64,000 nucleotides of DNA from the NCBI GenBank assembly GCA_003285105.1, contig CP030158.1, positions 1,402,501-1,466,500 on the forward strand. The letters are read 5' to 3'. Origin of the DNA: Roseithermus sacchariphilus. GTDB taxonomy: Bacteria > Bacteroidota > Rhodothermia > Rhodothermales > MEBIC09517. The notes beneath the pieces are model-generated. The model saw nothing but the letters and a program-made list of their open reading frames with translations, made no database searches and was not told the DNA's origin. Each line of letters starts with the position of its first letter. Position 1 is the first letter of the stretch. Both the position numbers and the translations under genes were made by a program. Of the stretch, positions 18,447 to 63,137 are shown one piece after another.

Positions 18447-18508
18447 TTCAGGGGTCAGCGGTCAGCCATCAGCCATCAGCCATCAGCCCACAGCCCACAG
18501 CCAGCAGC
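18447..18508. repeat. Heptameric NAGCNNN satellite downstream of nosY
   Basis: A run of 7-bp units (GGTCAGC, CATCAGC, CCACAGC, CAGCAGC) ends at the nosY stop codon. It belongs to the 7-bp-period family found at about ten gene gaps in this window. Confidence 0.8.
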
Positions 18509-19303
18509 CTAAAAATCCTTCCGCCGGAAGCGGCGCAGGCCCAGCCCGAGGGGGACGATGAGCCAGAGGCCGAGCGCCGTCAGCGACACGCCCGCGCCGA
18601 GGGTGCTGCCGAAGAACCGCTCGAAGACGGCCCCGGTGTAGCCCATCAGCGCCGAGACGTCGAAATGCAGCAGCAGCAGGACGCGGCCCAGGTCGATCGG
18701 GTTGAGGAGCGTCAGGGCGATCATGGGGCGTTCCAGGGGGTAGGCCGAGAGCGCCGCCACCAGCGCCAGCACCAGCCCGTCGTAGAGCACGGCGCCGGCG
18801 AGCCACAGCCCGACGGCCACGGCGAGCCCCCGCACGCGGTCCTCGAACCGCACCGCCAGCCAGAACGCCAGCGCCACGAACACGAGCGTCAGCAGCACGC
18901 CCACGGCCAGCAGCATCGCCAGCGTGGCGCCGCCGCCGCCGTGCAGCAGGAACGGCACGCCCACGCCCAGCACGAACCCCCCGGCCAGCGGCAGCGAGAG
19001 CCCGGCGTAGAGCCCGGCGAAGAGCTCGCCGCGCCGCACCGGCTGCGCCAGCATCAACTCCACGAACTCCCGTGCCTGGTACAGGTACAGCGCCCCGAAG
19101 ACGACGCCGACCAGCGGAATCAGGATGAGGACGACGTTGAGCAGGCTCAGCAGCACGCCCGTGCCGGTGCCGCCGAACTGGAACAGCCCCTCCGTGAGGC
19201 CGAAGAAGAACAGCGCGTAGAGGGTCACCCACCGGCTGCGCAGCACGTCGCTGAATTCGTACTGGAAGACCCGGGCGGTTGCTGTGGGGATGAGCGTGGT
19301 CAT
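18509..19303 (-). CDS. nosY: NosY, ABC transporter permease for copper-site maturation
   Basis: 264 residues, six hydrophobic segments (for example ALFFFGLTEGLF, VLLSLLNVVLILIPLVGVVFGALYLY, LLAVGVLLTLVFVALAF, VPLGLGL) of the ABC-2 permease type. NosY forms the membrane part of the NosDFY machine needed to build the CuZ centre of nitrous oxide reductase. Its ATG overlaps the nosF stop (ATGA, 19300-19303), so the two are translationally coupled. The downstream end runs straight into a heptamer satellite. Confidence 0.92.
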   Translation of the reverse strand: MTTLIPTATARVFQYEFSDVLRSRWVTLYALFFFGLTEGLFQFGGTGTGVLLSLLNVVLILIPLVGVVFGALYLYQAREFVELMLAQPVRRGELFAGLYAGLSLPLAGGFVLGVGVPFLLHGGGGATLAMLLAVGVLLTLVFVALAFWLAVRFEDRVRGLAVAVGLWLAGAVLYDGLVLALVAALSAYPLERPMIALTLLNPIDLGRVLLLLHFDVSALMGYTGAVFERFFGSTLGAGVSLTALGLWLIVPLGLGLRRFRRKDF

Positions 19304-28922: not shown

Positions 28923-28963
28923 GGCCTGCGGCCAGGGGGAAGGGCTCGTTCTGGCACGATGCC

Positions 28964-29217
28964 AGCAGCCCACAGCCAGCAGCCCACAGCCAGCAGCCCA
29001 CAGCCAGCAGCCCACAGCCAGCAGCCCACAGCCAGCAGCCCACAGCCAGCAGCCCACAGCCAGCAGCCCACAGCCAGCAGCCCACAGCCAGCAGCCCACA
29101 GCCAGCAGCCCACAGCCAGCAGCCCACAGCCAGCAGCCCACAGCCAGCAGCCCACAGCCAGCAGCCCACAGCCAGCAGCCCACAGCCAGCAGCCCACAGC
29201 CAGCAGCCCACAGCCAT
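28964..29217. repeat. 14-bp tandem array, about 18 units
   Basis: AGCAGCCCACAGCC repeated head to tail with almost no change, itself two heptamers (AGCAGCC, CACAGCC). It is the most regular member of the heptamer family here. Because 14 is not a multiple of 3, all frames stay open and produce spurious low-complexity reading frames. No gene is seen in the 28621-29276 gap. Confidence 0.95.
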
Positions 29218-29797: not shown

Positions 29798-30250
29798 TTC
29801 AGCGGTCAGCCGTCAGCCTTCAGCCCCCAGCCAGAAGCCCGAAGCCCACAGCCCGCAGCCCGCAGCCCACAGCCAGAAGCTCCTCCCCTTGCGAAGGGGA
29901 GGTGTCGCGCAGCGACGGAGGGGTAGACTCGGATGATGGCGGCAGTGCGGCAGTGATGACCCCCTTCCCCCCTTCGGGGGACTTCCCCCTGTACGGCCTG
30001 CGGCCAGGGGGAAGGACTGCTGGTACGATGCCATCAGCCCACAGCCCACAGCCCGCAGCCCACAGCCCACAGCCCACAGCCCGCCGCCATCAGCCCACAG
30101 CCATCAGCCCACAGCCATCAGCCCCCAGCCAGAAGCCCGAAGCCCACAGCCAGAAGCCCGCAGCCCGCAGCCAGAAGCCCGCAGCCCACAGCCAGAAGCC
30201 CGCAGCCCACAGCCAGAAGCCCGCAGCCCACAGCCAGAAGCCCGCAGCCC
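29798..30250. repeat. Composite repeat gap: heptamers around one GC-rich hairpin repeat
   Basis: Heptamer units at 29798-29882 and 30030-30250 (CAGCCAG, AAGCCCG, CAGCCCA) enclose a hairpin-repeat copy at about 29884-30022 with the CCCCTTGCGAAGGGG stem. This fills the gap between rrf2-2 and the transporter gene; no gene or promoter is recognised. Confidence 0.85.
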
Positions 30251-38042: not shown

Positions 38043-38150
38043 GCGCCGTGGAGTGCTGCGGGCTTCTGGCTGCTGGCTGTGGGCTACTGGCTGTGGGCTG
38101 CGGGCTTCTGGCTGCGGGCTGCTGGCTGAAGGCTGAAAGCTGACCGCTGT
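38043..38150. repeat. Heptamer satellite inside the ars operon
   Basis: About 15 units of 7 bp in GCTG orientation (GCTGCGG, GCTTCTG, GCTGTGG) occupy most of the 158-bp gap between acr3 and arsC. Its effect on read-through is unknown. Confidence 0.85.
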
Positions 38151-49761: not shown

Positions 49762-50148
49762 GGGTGGCTTTCAGCTTTCAGCGGTCAGCGGTCAGCGTTC
49801 TGGCTCGACGCGAGGGTGCTTGCCGTGCAGCCGTTCGCTGAATGCTGCTGGCTGCTGGCTGACGGCTGCTGGCTTCGGACTGCTGGCTTCGTGTGACGCA
49901 GGTTCTTCCCCCTGGCCGCAGGCCGCACAGGGGGAAGGTCCCCGAAGGGGGGAAGGGGGTCATGAGCGCTGCGATGCCGCCAGCGCCCGGGGTAGACTCC
50001 TCCGTCGCTGTGCGACACCGACCTTTCGCATGGGGAGGGGCTGAAAGCTGACGGCTGAAAGCTGACGGCTGAAAGCTGACGGCTTTGTGGTTTTCCGCCG
50101 TGCAGCCGATTATTCGTCAGCCGTCTTCCGTCCGTCGAGTCAGGTGCC
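49762..50148. repeat. Composite repeat gap: heptamers with one GC-rich hairpin repeat
   Basis: Heptamers at 49769-49895 change orientation within the run (CAGC units, then GCTG units). A hairpin-repeat copy follows at about 49905-50040, then short heptamers to 50085 (GCTGACG, GCTGAAA). The 60 bp before the glycosyltransferase start look unique. No gene is seen. Confidence 0.85.
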
Positions 50149-52250: not shown

Positions 52251-52345
52251 TGTCAGCGGTCAGCCATCAGCCGTCAGCGGTCAGCGGTCACACGAAGCCG
52301 GCAGCCAGCAGCCCGCAGCTTTCAGCCAGCAGCCTTCAGGGAACA
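52251..52345. repeat. Heptamer satellite after the methyltransferase gene
   Basis: TCAGCGG, TCAGCCA, CAGCAGC-type 7-bp units directly after the stop codon. Confidence 0.8.
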
Positions 52346-54867: not shown

Positions 54868-54934
54868 GGGCTGCGGGCTGAAAGCTGCTGGCTGCTGGCT
54901 GCTGGCTGCTGGCTGCAAGCTGCTGGCATCGTGC
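54868..54934. repeat. Heptamer satellite after pyrG
   Basis: About nine units in GCTG orientation (TGGCTGC, AAGCTGC) start at the pyrG stop and lead into the 167-bp array. Confidence 0.8.
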
Positions 54935-54942
54935 CGGAACGA

Positions 54943-56084
54943 GCCCTTCCCCCTGGCCGCAGGCCGCACAGGGGGAAGTCCCCCGCAGGGGGGAAGGGGG
55001 TCAACACCCACCGCATCGCCGCCATCGCCCGGGGTCTACCCCTCCGTCGCTGCGGGCCACCTCCCCTTCGCAAGGGGAGGAGTTGGATGGCGCTATCGGA
55101 TCGGGCCACGCCCTTCCCCCTGGCCGCAGGCCGCACAGGGGGAAGTCCCCCGCAGGGGGGAAGGGGGTCAACACCCACCGCATCGCCGCCATCGCCCGGG
55201 GTCTACCCCTCCGTCGCTGCGGGCCACCTCCCCTTCGCAAGGGGAGGAGTTGGATGGCGCTATCGGATCGGGCCACGCCCTTCCCCCTGGCCGCAGGCCG
55301 CACAGGGGGAAGTCCCCCGCAGGGGGGAAGGGGGTCAACACCCGCCGCATCGCCGCCATCGCCCGGGGTCTACCCCTCCGTCGCTGCGGGCCACCTCCCC
55401 TTCGCAAGGGGAGGATCTGGATGGCGCTATCGGATCGGGCCACGCCCTTCCCCCTGGCCGCAGGCCGCACAGGGGGAAGTCCCCCGCAGGGGGGAAGGGG
55501 GTCAACACCCACCGCATCGCCGCCATCGCCCGGGGTCTACCCCTCCGGCCCTGCGGGCCACCTCCCCTTCGCAAGGGGAGGAGTTGGATGGCGCTATCGG
55601 ATCGGGCCACGCCCTTCCCCCTGGCCGCAGGCCGCACAGGGGGAAGTCCCCCGCAGGGGGGAAGGGGGTCAACACCCGCCGCATCGCCGCCATCGCCCGG
55701 GGTCTACCCCTCCGGCCCTGCGGGCCACCTCCCCTTCGCAAGGGGAGGATCTGGATGGCGCTATCGGATCGGGCCACGCCCTTCCCCCTGGCCGCAGGCC
55801 GCACAGGGGGAAGTCCCCCGCAGGGGGGAAGGGGGTCAACACCCACCGCATCGCCGCCATCATCCGGGTCTACCCCTCCGGCCCTGCGGGCCACCTCCCC
55901 TTCGCAAGGGGAGGAGTTGGATGGCGCTATCGGATCGGGCCACGCCCTTCCCCCTGGCCGCAGGCCGCACAGGGGGAAGGTCCCCGAAGGGGGGAAGGGG
56001 GTCAACACCCGCCGCATCGCCGCCATCGCCCGGGGTCTACCCCTCCGGCCCTGCGGGCCACCTCCCCTTCGCAAGGGGAGGAGT
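54943..56084. repeat. 167-bp tandem array, about 6.8 copies
   Basis: Units start with CCCTTCCCCCTGGCC and have a period of 167 bp (marker ATGGCGCTATCGG at 55087, 55254, 55421, 55588, 55755; then 166 to 55921). Each unit carries several GC hairpins, for example CCCCTTCGCAAGGGG and the TTCCCCCT/AGGGGGAA pair. Copies differ at a few sites: CGTCGCTGCGG in the first three against CGGCCCTGCGG later, and GAGTT against GATCT. Single dispersed copies occur at 26453, 28813, 29884 and 49905. Open frames across it are artefacts; no gene is seen. Confidence 0.95.
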
Positions 56085-56177
56085 TGCGGGCTTCTGGCTG
56101 CGGGCTTCTGGCTGCGGGCTTCTGGCTGACGGCTGACCGCTGACGGCTGACCGCTGACGGCTGACCGCTGACAGGCA
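56085..56177. repeat. Heptamer satellite after the 167-bp array
   Basis: GCGGGCTTCTGGCT units and then GCTGACGGCTGACC units, all with 7-bp period. Confidence 0.85.
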
Positions 56178-60445: not shown

Positions 60446-61096
60446 TCACCGCAGGCGCCGCATCAGCGCGATGACCCGGCCGATGACGTGGCAGCGAGGG
60501 TCGGCCGGCGAGAAGGTTTCCTCCGTGTAGGTGCGGTCCGCCGGGCGCAGGTGCAGGCGGTCGTTGGCGAAGTAGAACCGCCGAATCAGCAACTCCTCGC
60601 CCACCAGGAAGGCGGACAGCTCGCCGTTGCGCAGCTGGTTCCAGGGGGCTTCCTCGATGACCACGAAGTCGCCCTTCCGGATGCCGTCGCCGTTCATCCC
60701 GTCATCGCCGGCGCGGCCGATCACGCACGTCTCCGGGTCCATCACGCCGCGCAGGAAGTAGGGGTCCACCGTGAGGTAGCCGCTGGGGCGGCGGCGCAGC
60801 TGCTCGGGCTGGTCGCTGGCCGTGCGGCTGACGACGACCAGCGTGGGGGCGCCCTCGTCGAGGGCAAAGGGGTCCGCCTCGTCGTCGGCCAGGCGCAGCC
60901 CGCGCGCGGCGTTCGGTTCGCGCTGGAGGTAGCCTTTCGTCTCCAGCGCCCGGAGCAGCTTGAAGACCCCGTTGGTCGAGCGAATGCCGAGGGCCTGCCC
61001 GATCTCCTTCAGCGTGGGCGGCTTGCGGTGGGTCCGCATGTAGGAGCGGATGAACTCGTACGCCTGGTTCTGACGCTCGGTGAGGCGTGCCTTCAT
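60446..61096 (-). CDS. LexA-like repressor without self-cleavage residues
   Basis: 216 residues. The N-terminal winged helix is LexA-like: RKPPTLKEIGQALGIRSTNGVFKLLRALETKGYLQRE. The C-terminal S24 fold is recognisable (GYLTVDPYFL, GIRKGDFVVIEEAPWNQLRNGELSAFLVGEELLIRRFYF), but the catalytic serine position reads Gly133 (DDGM instead of GDSM), the lysine position reads Arg172 (LLIRR instead of TVKR) and the Ala-Gly cleavage site is not found. It should therefore bind DNA without RecA-stimulated autoproteolysis, as proposed for some cyanobacterial LexA proteins. Two perfect palindromes lie upstream. Confidence 0.85.
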   Translation of the reverse strand: MKARLTERQNQAYEFIRSYMRTHRKPPTLKEIGQALGIRSTNGVFKLLRALETKGYLQREPNAARGLRLADDEADPFALDEGAPTLVVVSRTASDQPEQLRRRPSGYLTVDPYFLRGVMDPETCVIGRAGDDGMNGDGIRKGDFVVIEEAPWNQLRNGELSAFLVGEELLIRRFYFANDRLHLRPADRTYTEETFSPADPRCHVIGRVIALMRRLR

Positions 61097-61147
61097 GGAC
61101 CGGCAAAGGGGCGGATGGGATATGTGCGCGCCGGCCAGTATACGAAG

Positions 61148-61163
61148 GTGAAATGATTTTCAC
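61148..61163. promoter_or_regulatory. Palindromic operator 1 upstream of the LexA-like gene
   Basis: GTGAAATGATTTTCAC, perfect 6-bp arms around 4 bp, 52 bp before the LexA-like start. The same arms recur 32 bp further upstream. Confidence 0.75.
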
Positions 61164-61179
61164 TACCCCGAAAAACAGG

Positions 61180-61195
61180 GTGAAAAGATTTTCAC
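61180..61195. promoter_or_regulatory. Palindromic operator 2 upstream of the LexA-like gene
   Basis: GTGAAAAGATTTTCAC, same arms as operator 1. The centre-to-centre distance is 32 bp, about three helical turns, so both sites face the same side of the DNA. Confidence 0.75.
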
Positions 61196-61347
61196 TTTAT
61201 TGCTGTGTCGGGTTTCTGGAGGGGGTCTCGATATGTGTGCATATGCCTTGCACAGATGGTGGGTAGGTTGAGAAAAGCGGGAAAATCGGCCTGAAACGCA
61301 TATTTTTGGGCCGTCGTGTTTGACATTCGCGCGGCCTGGTGTACCTT

Positions 61348-61410
61348 GTGGGGAAAAGTGGGGAACTTCCCCAGGGTTCATCGGCTTTTGAGGGAGGACC
61401 GTGGGGAATC
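61348..61410 (+). promoter_or_regulatory. MraZ-binding repeats upstream of mraZ
   Basis: GTGGGGAAAA (61348) and GTGGGGAACT (61358) lie exactly 10 bp apart, and GTGGGGAATC follows at 61401. MraZ binds TGGGN repeats spaced by 5 bp in its own promoter, so autoregulation of the division cluster is expected. Confidence 0.85.
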
Positions 61411-61425
61411 CCGGTCTTCGACGTC

Positions 61426-61866
61426 ATGGCGCGTTTCAAGGGACAGGCTGAATACTCCGTTGACGACAAGGGGCGGGTGGCCATCCCGGCCAAGATGCGG
61501 AGTGCCATGACCCCGGAGGCCGAGGGGACGTTCATCATCACGCGCGGCCTTGAGCAATGCATCTTCCTCTACCCGAAAGACCGATGGGCCGAGATCGAGG
61601 AGCGGATCGGGGGGCTGAACATGTTTCAGCGAGAGTCCCGCGAGTTCGCGCGGCGCATCTTGATGTGGGCCGAGGAAGCCGTGCTCGACAAGCAGGGCCG
61701 CGTGAGCCTGCCGAAGCCGTTGATGGAGTTTGCCGGCATCCAGGAGAAGGCGCTCATCATCGGTGCCTTCGACCACATCGAGATCTGGGATCTCGACGTC
61801 TGGGAGGCCCACATCAACGAGGCCGTCGAGGATTACGAGACGCTGGCCGAGCGGGTGATGACGTGA
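61426..61866 (+). CDS. mraZ: MraZ transcription regulator of the division cluster
   Basis: 146 residues from the ATG at 61426 ([21 protein letters not shown]). Two AbrB/SpoVT-like repeats are visible: [15 protein letters not shown] and [20 protein letters not shown]. It forms ring oligomers and binds TGGGN repeats, present at 61348-61410. Its TGA stop overlaps the ATG of rsmH. It marks the start of a dcw (division and cell wall) cluster continuing off the right edge. Confidence 0.96.
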
Positions 61867-62894
61867 TGCCGACCGACGAACCGGACGGTGGGCCCGCCGG
61901 GGCGGACCCGGCCCCCGGGGCGCGACCCTACGCGTCGGGCTACCACGCCCCTGTTCTTTGCATCCCTGTTGTAGACGCCCTGGTGACCGACCCGGCCGGG
62001 GTGTACGTCGACGCCACCCTGGGCGGCGGCGGCCACACGGCGGCGCTGCTCGACCGGCTGGCGCCGGCCGGGCGCGTGGTGGGCATCGACCAGGACGAGG
62101 CCGCCCTGGCGGCGGCCCGGACGCGCCTGGCCCCGGCGCTGGAAGCCGGTCGCTTCCTGGCGGTCCGCGGCAACTTCGGCGACCTGGAGGCGCTCCTGGC
62201 CGAAGCGGGCTTCGACACGGTCGACGGCCTGCTGCTCGACCTGGGGATCTCGTCGCACCAGATCGATGTGCCGGAGCGCGGCTTCAGTTACGCCGCCGCC
62301 GGCCCGCTCGACATGCGGATGGACCGCCGCCGCCGGCTGACGGCGCACGAGATCGTCAACACGTGGGAGGCCGGAGCCCTGCGCCGGGTGCTGCAGGCCT
62401 ACGGCGACGAGCCTCGTGCGGCGCAGGTGGCCCGGGCCATCGTGCAGGCGCGGCCGCTGGAGACGACCGAGGCGCTGGCGGCCGTCGTCCGTGCCGCCGT
62501 GCCCACGCGCGAGGAGGTCAAGACGCTGGCCCGGGTCTTCCAGGCGCTGCGCATCGCCGTCAACGAGGAGCTGGCGATGCTGGAGCAGGTGCTGGCGGCG
62601 GCCGCGCGGGTGCTGCGCCCCGGCGGGCGCATCGCCGTCATCAGCTACCACTCGCTGGAAGACCGCCGCGTCAAGCGCGTCTTTCGCCACGGCAACCTGG
62701 CCGGCCGCCCCGTGCGGGATCTCTACGGAAACCCGCTGACGCCCTGGCGCGAGCTGACGCACCGGCCCGTCACGCCCCCGGCGGAGGAGGTCGCCGCCAA
62801 CCCGCGTGCCCGGAGTGCGCGCCTGCGTGTGGCCGAGCGCACCGAGGCGCCGCCCGACGTGCAGGCGCATCCCGCCGCCGGACCTGCACCCTGA
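61866..62894 (+). CDS. rsmH: 16S rRNA m4C1402 methyltransferase
   Basis: 342 residues. SAM-binding [34 protein letters not shown] and the family motifs [28 protein letters not shown] and [20 protein letters not shown]. It N4-methylates C1402 of 16S rRNA. The start overlaps the mraZ stop (TGATG). The C-terminal ~30 residues are Ala/Pro-rich and variable. A 13-bp minisatellite begins a few bases after the stop. Confidence 0.96.
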
Positions 62895-62910
62895 GGCGGT
62901 CCCGCGCTCC

Positions 62911-63137
62911 GTACCCCGAATCCGTACCCCGAATCCGTACCCCGAATCCGTACCCCGAATCCGTACCCCGAATCCGTACCCCGAATCCGTACCCCGAATC
63001 CGTACCCCGAATCCGTACCCCGAATCCGTACCCCGAATCCGTACCCCGAATCCGTACCCCGAATCCGTACCCCGAATCCGTACCCCGAATCCGTACCCCG
63101 AATCCGTACCCCGAATCCGTACCCCGAATCCGTATCC
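62911..63137. repeat. 13-bp tandem array, about 17 units, between rsmH and the next gene
   Basis: CCGTACCCCGAAT repeated head to tail with almost no variation. It occupies most of the 284 bp between rsmH and the small gene at 63179. It interrupts a normally compact operon, and the unit is not a multiple of 3, so open frames through it are spurious. Confidence 0.95.

Follow-up and report, generated by a model that had tools for sequence, protein, structure and literature searches.

What does a LexA-type repressor do when the residues with which LexA cleaves itself have been replaced? The question is raised by a gene in a 64-kb stretch of the Roseithermus sacchariphilus genome (CP030158.1; full genome 4.8 Mb), hereafter the window, whose positions serve as coordinates throughout. 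The gene occupies 60446-61096 on the minus strand, is an open reading frame of 216 amino acids, and is here given the coined name lexL (lexA-like), for a cleavage-dead LexA paralog. A preliminary description of the locus held that the LexA-type DNA-binding domain and the S24 fold are retained, and domain and structure searches bore this out. The LexA_DNA_bind winged-helix domain (aa 4-66; 60899-61087, minus strand) was recognized by PF01726 (E 2.1e-19) and by a Foldseek match to 1lea (target TM 0.88), and the S24-like C-terminal domain, with its catalytic residues replaced (aa 104-209; 60470-60787, minus strand), by Peptidase_S24 (PF00717, E 2.5e-13). In the AlphaFold2 model (pLDDT 81, pTM 0.56), the domains are confident and the linker is loose (residues 72-82 with pLDDT below 50). 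The best Foldseek matches of the model were LexA of Thermotoga maritima and of Escherichia coli (E 3e-17), and LexA C-terminal domains matched its S24-like part with target TM values of about 0.78-0.82.

Aligned to E. coli LexA, LexL has Gly133 in place of the catalytic Ser119, within the motif D131-D132-G133-M134 (Gly133 codon at 60698-60700, minus strand), Arg172 in place of the catalytic Lys156 (60581-60583, minus strand; invariant in alignments A1 and A3), and Ser-Asp in place of the Ala-Gly scissile pair. The alignment thus confirmed all three losses that had first been described. It is very probable that LexL lacks the DNA-damage trigger. Lost catalytic residues, and a homolog broken by a stop codon (L078), are also what a decaying, functionless lexA duplicate might show, but this explanation is refuted by conservation and we consider it extremely improbable: reading frames are full-length and well conserved across about 100 loci, the operators described below are conserved along with them, and the replacement residues do not vary. 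In an alignment of 23 members, D131, G133, M134, and R172 were invariant and D132 reached at least 90%, at a mean column identity of only 58%, which argues that the altered site is functional rather than decayed. The catalytic residues and the Ala-Gly pair are gone in every member of the dead clade, while D-G-M and Arg are kept without drift. The replacement motif in the clade is usually D-D-G/A-M plus Arg, and LexL has both this motif and a place in the clade; variants in some members are DDTM, DDSM, DSSM, DNGM, and DDAL. Two strongly diverged mraZ-linked members with DDSM (L139 and L140, family f5 of the same order) have the Ser, with Lys replaced by Arg and no Ala-Gly pair; possibly they represent an intermediate state.

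The genomic neighborhood of lexL was next to constant. In the window, lexL is transcribed divergently from mraZ, with which the cell-division (dcw) gene cluster begins (61426-61866, plus strand; Pfam MraZ E 9.7e-30; TIGR00242 118.9 bits, cut-off 98.35), which is followed by the second dcw gene, rsmH or mraW (open reading frame at 61866-62894, plus strand). A close lexL homolog (41-100% identity) was found in 29 of 60 genomes sampled in the order, and all 29 orthologs lie head to head with mraZ, then rsmH. In a scan of named loci, which was based on the closer alignment set A2 and partly overlaps these 29, 21 of 22 loci adjoin mraZ in divergent orientation; they come from Rhodothermus sp., Salinibacter altiplanensis, Salinivenus lutea, S. 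iranica, and many Rhodothermales metagenome bins. When 394 genomes of the phylum were searched and the loci read, copies divergent from mraZ were also detected in other classes (families f40, f54, f36, and f34), carrying DDGM, DDTM, DDAM, or similar motifs plus Arg. Altogether, 15 of the 21 dead copies from other classes are divergent from mraZ; for the remaining six (families f31, f52, and f57), mraZ was not found within about 2 kb. Among 29 intact LexA copies, which have Ser, Lys, and an Ala-Gly (once Gly-Gly) cleavage pair, none had mraZ as a neighbor in the 1.5-2 kb read. This divergent neighbor, the strongest clue at the locus, had been overlooked in the preliminary description. On the downstream side no constant partner was found: 14 named loci share a convergent neighbor, which we take by eye from its N-terminus to be CTP synthase (pyrG), and the window has a sensor kinase. 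In a tree of 77 proteins (short search with trait columns retained, SH-aLRT support only), all 47 dead copies fell on one side of one branch with a support of 99.7. A single origin of the substitution, followed by its retention, is therefore probable.

The check for a second, intact LexA in the same genome was positive: a copy with Ala-Gly, Ser, and Lys present is encoded at C1:4625441-4626120. The genome also contains a UmuD-like gene beside UmuC and two phage-repressor-like S24 proteins, and with the separate LexA and the UmuD-like/UmuC pair it keeps the parts of an SOS system beside lexL. The upstream regions of seven intact LexA copies of the order revealed no clear palindrome that could be a shared operator. 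This separate LexA weighs against the idea that LexL is still an SOS regulator, inactivated after damage in some other way (by Lon/ClpXP or a partner protein), which we regard as improbable overall. The idea would be likeliest in Rhodothermus, where seven genomes (G002, G016, G027, G037, G044, G051, and G057) have no PF01726 protein other than the dead copy and six of the seven have no other S24 protein; no cleavable LexA-type protein was found in these genomes. Even there, palindromes with at most one mismatch were at control level, and no additional operators at repair genes were seen.

Two perfect GTGAAA-N4-TTTCAC palindromes, 52 and 84 bp upstream of lexL and 32 bp apart, were found where they had been reported. 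The first predicted operator, GTGAAATGATTTTCAC (61148-61163), adjoins lexL directly upstream of a -10-like TATACT, and the second, GTGAAAAGATTTTCAC, lies 32 bp from it (61180-61195). Within two mismatches, the window has no further match (0.28 expected), and two or more matches at this threshold arose in 3 of 100 shuffles. A genome scan had been proposed as a check; in the 4.8-Mb genome, at up to one mismatch, it returned only these two sites. This and the other genome-wide site counts are from pattern searches, and the reversed-pattern control gave three sites versus two, so that the count alone is no excess. The significance of the palindromes comes instead from their pairing, their position, and their conservation in homologs. 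A search for pairs (GTGA-N8-TCAC twice within 4-34 bp) found one place in the own genome, at lexL, and 11 places in 60 genomes, nine of them at lexL orthologs, with none for the reversed control. A CRP-type site (GTGA-N6-TCAC) was also considered as the identity of the palindromes and was ruled out, the spacer here being N8. An ATATGTG(C/T) motif lies on both sides of the pair (61120-61127 and 61231-61238); it recurs in several other families and is absent from Rhodothermus.

The two top-scoring operator matches exceeded all 500 dinucleotide shuffles (0/500) in 23 of the 29 intergenic regions of the orthologs; the remaining loci belong to Salinibacter relatives with half-degenerate sites and to family f4. 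Distances between operator centers in the orthologs were 32 bp in most, and otherwise 31, 33, 22, 41, 43, or 54 bp, i.e. close to whole helical turns, and for the paired operators of about 16 bp overall the spacings were 22, 31-34, 41-43, and 54 bp. The clustering on helical turns (Rayleigh R 0.84, p 1e-9) was computed over 23 lineages that are not independent and with relatedness uncorrected; for the five distinct spacings alone, p was about 0.01, and 0.0015 by a permutation with in-phase placement as an added requirement. The helical phasing claimed for the window is thus supported by the spacing statistics across homologs. Outside the class, the pairs read CTGA-N8-TCAG, 41 bp apart, or CTGAACA-N2/3-TGTTCAG, 33-34 bp apart (dyads of 16-17 bp), and another clade has a GTGT-N8-ACAC pair, 31 bp apart (some of these other-clade spacings were counted by eye on printed sequences). 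Operator letters drift between clades while the paired layout persists, as is expected if the sites co-change with the DNA-binding domain encoded alongside them. The operator had been called unlike that of E. coli; this is correct for its sequence but not for its geometry, which is the same 16-bp 4-N8-4 dyad, also seen in the forms CTGA-N8-TCAG and GTGT-N8-ACAC of related clades. In the mraZ-linked copy broken by a TGA (L078, genome G406), the region to mraZ is longer and the operator pair is still 32 bp apart.

We infer that LexL binds these two sites. Sites with at most two mismatches to the consensus were located almost exclusively at lexL in eight genomes; in G000, G002, G016, G032, G039, and G046, they were almost only the two at lexL. 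Across the order, one-mismatch palindromes were not enriched over the reversed control. No operators for LexL were seen at SOS genes, the two near-consensus sites of its genome both lying at its own gene (degenerate sites may escape such searches). The mraZ-facing position and the own operator pair, conserved in many members of the Rhodothermus/Salinibacter group and outside it, suggest that LexL regulates locally, where the dcw cluster starts, and is not an SOS switch. Our best reading, which we consider reasonably likely, is that LexL is an autorepressor that cannot be cleaved and that works locally, in the lexL/mraZ intergenic region.

How such a repressor might act can be read from the intergenic region. 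A putative lexL -10 element, TATACT, was read from the sequence at 61137-61142 (minus strand), and in many loci a -10-like element follows operator 1 by 1-7 bp in the direction of lexL (TATACT in the window, TATCTTTG in Rhodothermus). A putative mraZ promoter, TTGACA-N16-TACCTT, is located at 61320-61347 (plus strand), and most of the homologous intergenic regions likewise contain TTGAC...TACCTT/TACTTT/TACATT. A scan of the region with the sigma-70 consensus found neither the lexL nor the mraZ promoter, so that these elements are a reading of aligned sequences. Next to the putative mraZ promoter lie tandem GTGGGGAA repeats (61348-61366, plus strand), a probable MraZ operator made up of MraZ boxes; GTGGGGAA was present in 15 of 16 representative intergenic regions. 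No Rfam family was found in the region. With operator 1 in the putative -35/-10 spacer, autorepression by a block of RNA polymerase is predicted, and from this arrangement we judge self-repression of lexL to be likely. In the mechanism that we propose, a LexA paralog permanently devoid of its S24 protease, with winged helix and C-terminal dimer domain kept, would bind two 16-bp operators on the same helix face before its own gene; LexL bound at the proximal one, between -35 and -10, would exclude RNA polymerase, and operator 2 would probably add cooperativity. Such a protein would not be switched off by RecA and could serve as a set-point repressor, or it may answer some ligand, partner, or protease.

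A second output would probably be the divergent mraZ/dcw promoter, since the pair lies in the shared intergenic region and this gene order persists between families and between classes. About 125 bp separate the operators from the putative mraZ -35, and the probable MraZ boxes are similarly distant; direct occlusion of mraZ is therefore unlikely, and LexL could influence mraZ only indirectly, for instance through looping, local competition, or supercoiling. Control of mraZ and the dcw cluster by LexL is a plausible possibility to which we give slightly less than an even chance. The constant mraZ neighbor could also reflect a shared promoter region without cross-control, and lexL is missing from roughly half of the genomes sampled in the order, which indicates that it is dispensable for dcw expression. 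A further alternative is that LexL is purely an autoregulator, its linkage to mraZ being ancestral gene order, and that it acts elsewhere in the genome by way of degenerate sites or contacts with proteins. The placement of the operators on the lexL side would fit, as would the few additional near-consensus palindromes in some genomes and the LexA of Synechocystis sp. PCC 6803, which has neither the Ala-Gly site nor the catalytic Ser, works outside SOS, and controls non-SOS genes (PMC7567884). On the other hand, near-consensus counts were at control level, pairs were almost exclusive to the lexL locus, and copies from different classes are still linked to mraZ when their proteins share 32-37% identity, a persistence that is rare for passive gene order; we therefore hold this alternative to be rather unlikely.

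In 11 of the 29 orthologous loci, perfect DnaA boxes (TTATCCACA) were observed in the stretch from the operators to the mraZ promoter, compared with 0.07 expected in total; these loci include L016, L021, L022, L025, L029, L030, L031, L032, L033, and L034, and the window is not among them. The window also contains several repeats. A 13-bp repeat, TCCGTACCCCGAA, occurs in 17.5 identical copies at 62908-63134, between rsmH and an ftsL-like gene and hence inside the dcw cluster, and a 167-bp tandem repeat occurs in 6.9 copies at 97% at 54943-56086. Many arrays of period 7, 14, and 21 (GCTGACC/CAGCCCA-like heptamers) are distributed throughout, e.g. at 18462-18509, 28961-29216, 30035-30250, 38055-38128, 50039-50084, 52252-52339, 54869-54927, and 56085-56172.

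Several features of LexL have counterparts in known systems. With canonical LexA (E. coli, T. maritima; TIGR00498) it shares the domain order, the predicted fold, the 16-bp dyad geometry, and paired sites in its own promoter; the E. coli lexA promoter has two SOS boxes bound with moderate cooperativity (PMC5152588), so that paired self-operators as such were already known. It differs from canonical LexA in lacking Ala-Gly and the Ser-Lys dyad, in its score below the TIGR00498 cut-off (101.9 versus 110.95 bits), in its GTGA rather than CTGT half-site, in showing no SOS sites, and in its mraZ neighbor. Non-cleavable LexA as such was likewise known from Synechocystis. The likeness to the cyanobacterial protein lies in its features (LexA fold, missing cleavage site and Ser); the Synechocystis protein is a single LexA with a broad regulon and no mraZ link reported in PMC7567884, whereas LexL belongs to its own clade among the sampled LexAs, has the DDGM/Arg motif, and has only local operators detected. 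The non-canonical LexA proteins of Bacteroidetes are S24-type regulators from the same wider bacterial group; they have a CI-like HTH, retain both Ala-Gly and Ser-Lys, and recognize GGA-N5-TCC or CTAA-N5-TTAG (PMC8565304). LexL differs in its lost dyad and in its N-terminus, for which the domain search reported PF01726 and no CI-like HTH. According to that study, which does not mention Rhodothermus or Salinibacter, the phylum as defined there is without LexA homologs (PMC8565304). MraZ, finally, is a known dcw regulator acting from the head of the cluster, with probable boxes in the window too, but it is an unrelated AbrB-like protein and the neighbor of lexL, not lexL itself. The mraZ-linked dead LexA family appears to be undescribed; no paper on it was found in a search that covered few subscription journals.

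The preliminary description had proposed a LexA lineage rewired from the SOS response to another signal. Its first half is supported by the lost cleavage residues, the kept fold, the phased operators, and the separate intact LexA; the other signal would be the ligand, partner, or protease considered above. More tentatively, and with some doubt, the protease-dead LexA may be a dedicated division-cluster regulator that no longer answers RecA and shares an intergenic hub with MraZ (in several families with DnaA as well), so that it would set the expression of the division genes. Annotation probably labels the members of the clade LexA or LexA-like, and they could be mistaken for SOS regulators; for Rhodothermus the question arises how, or whether, the DNA-damage response is regulated without a cleavable LexA-type protein. 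If our reading is right, the forms GTGA, CTGA, GTGT, and CTGAACA, with their pairing kept, would offer a natural series for studies of repressor-operator co-change, and on at least one occasion LexA repressors would have given rise to a non-SOS regulator linked to the genes of cell division.
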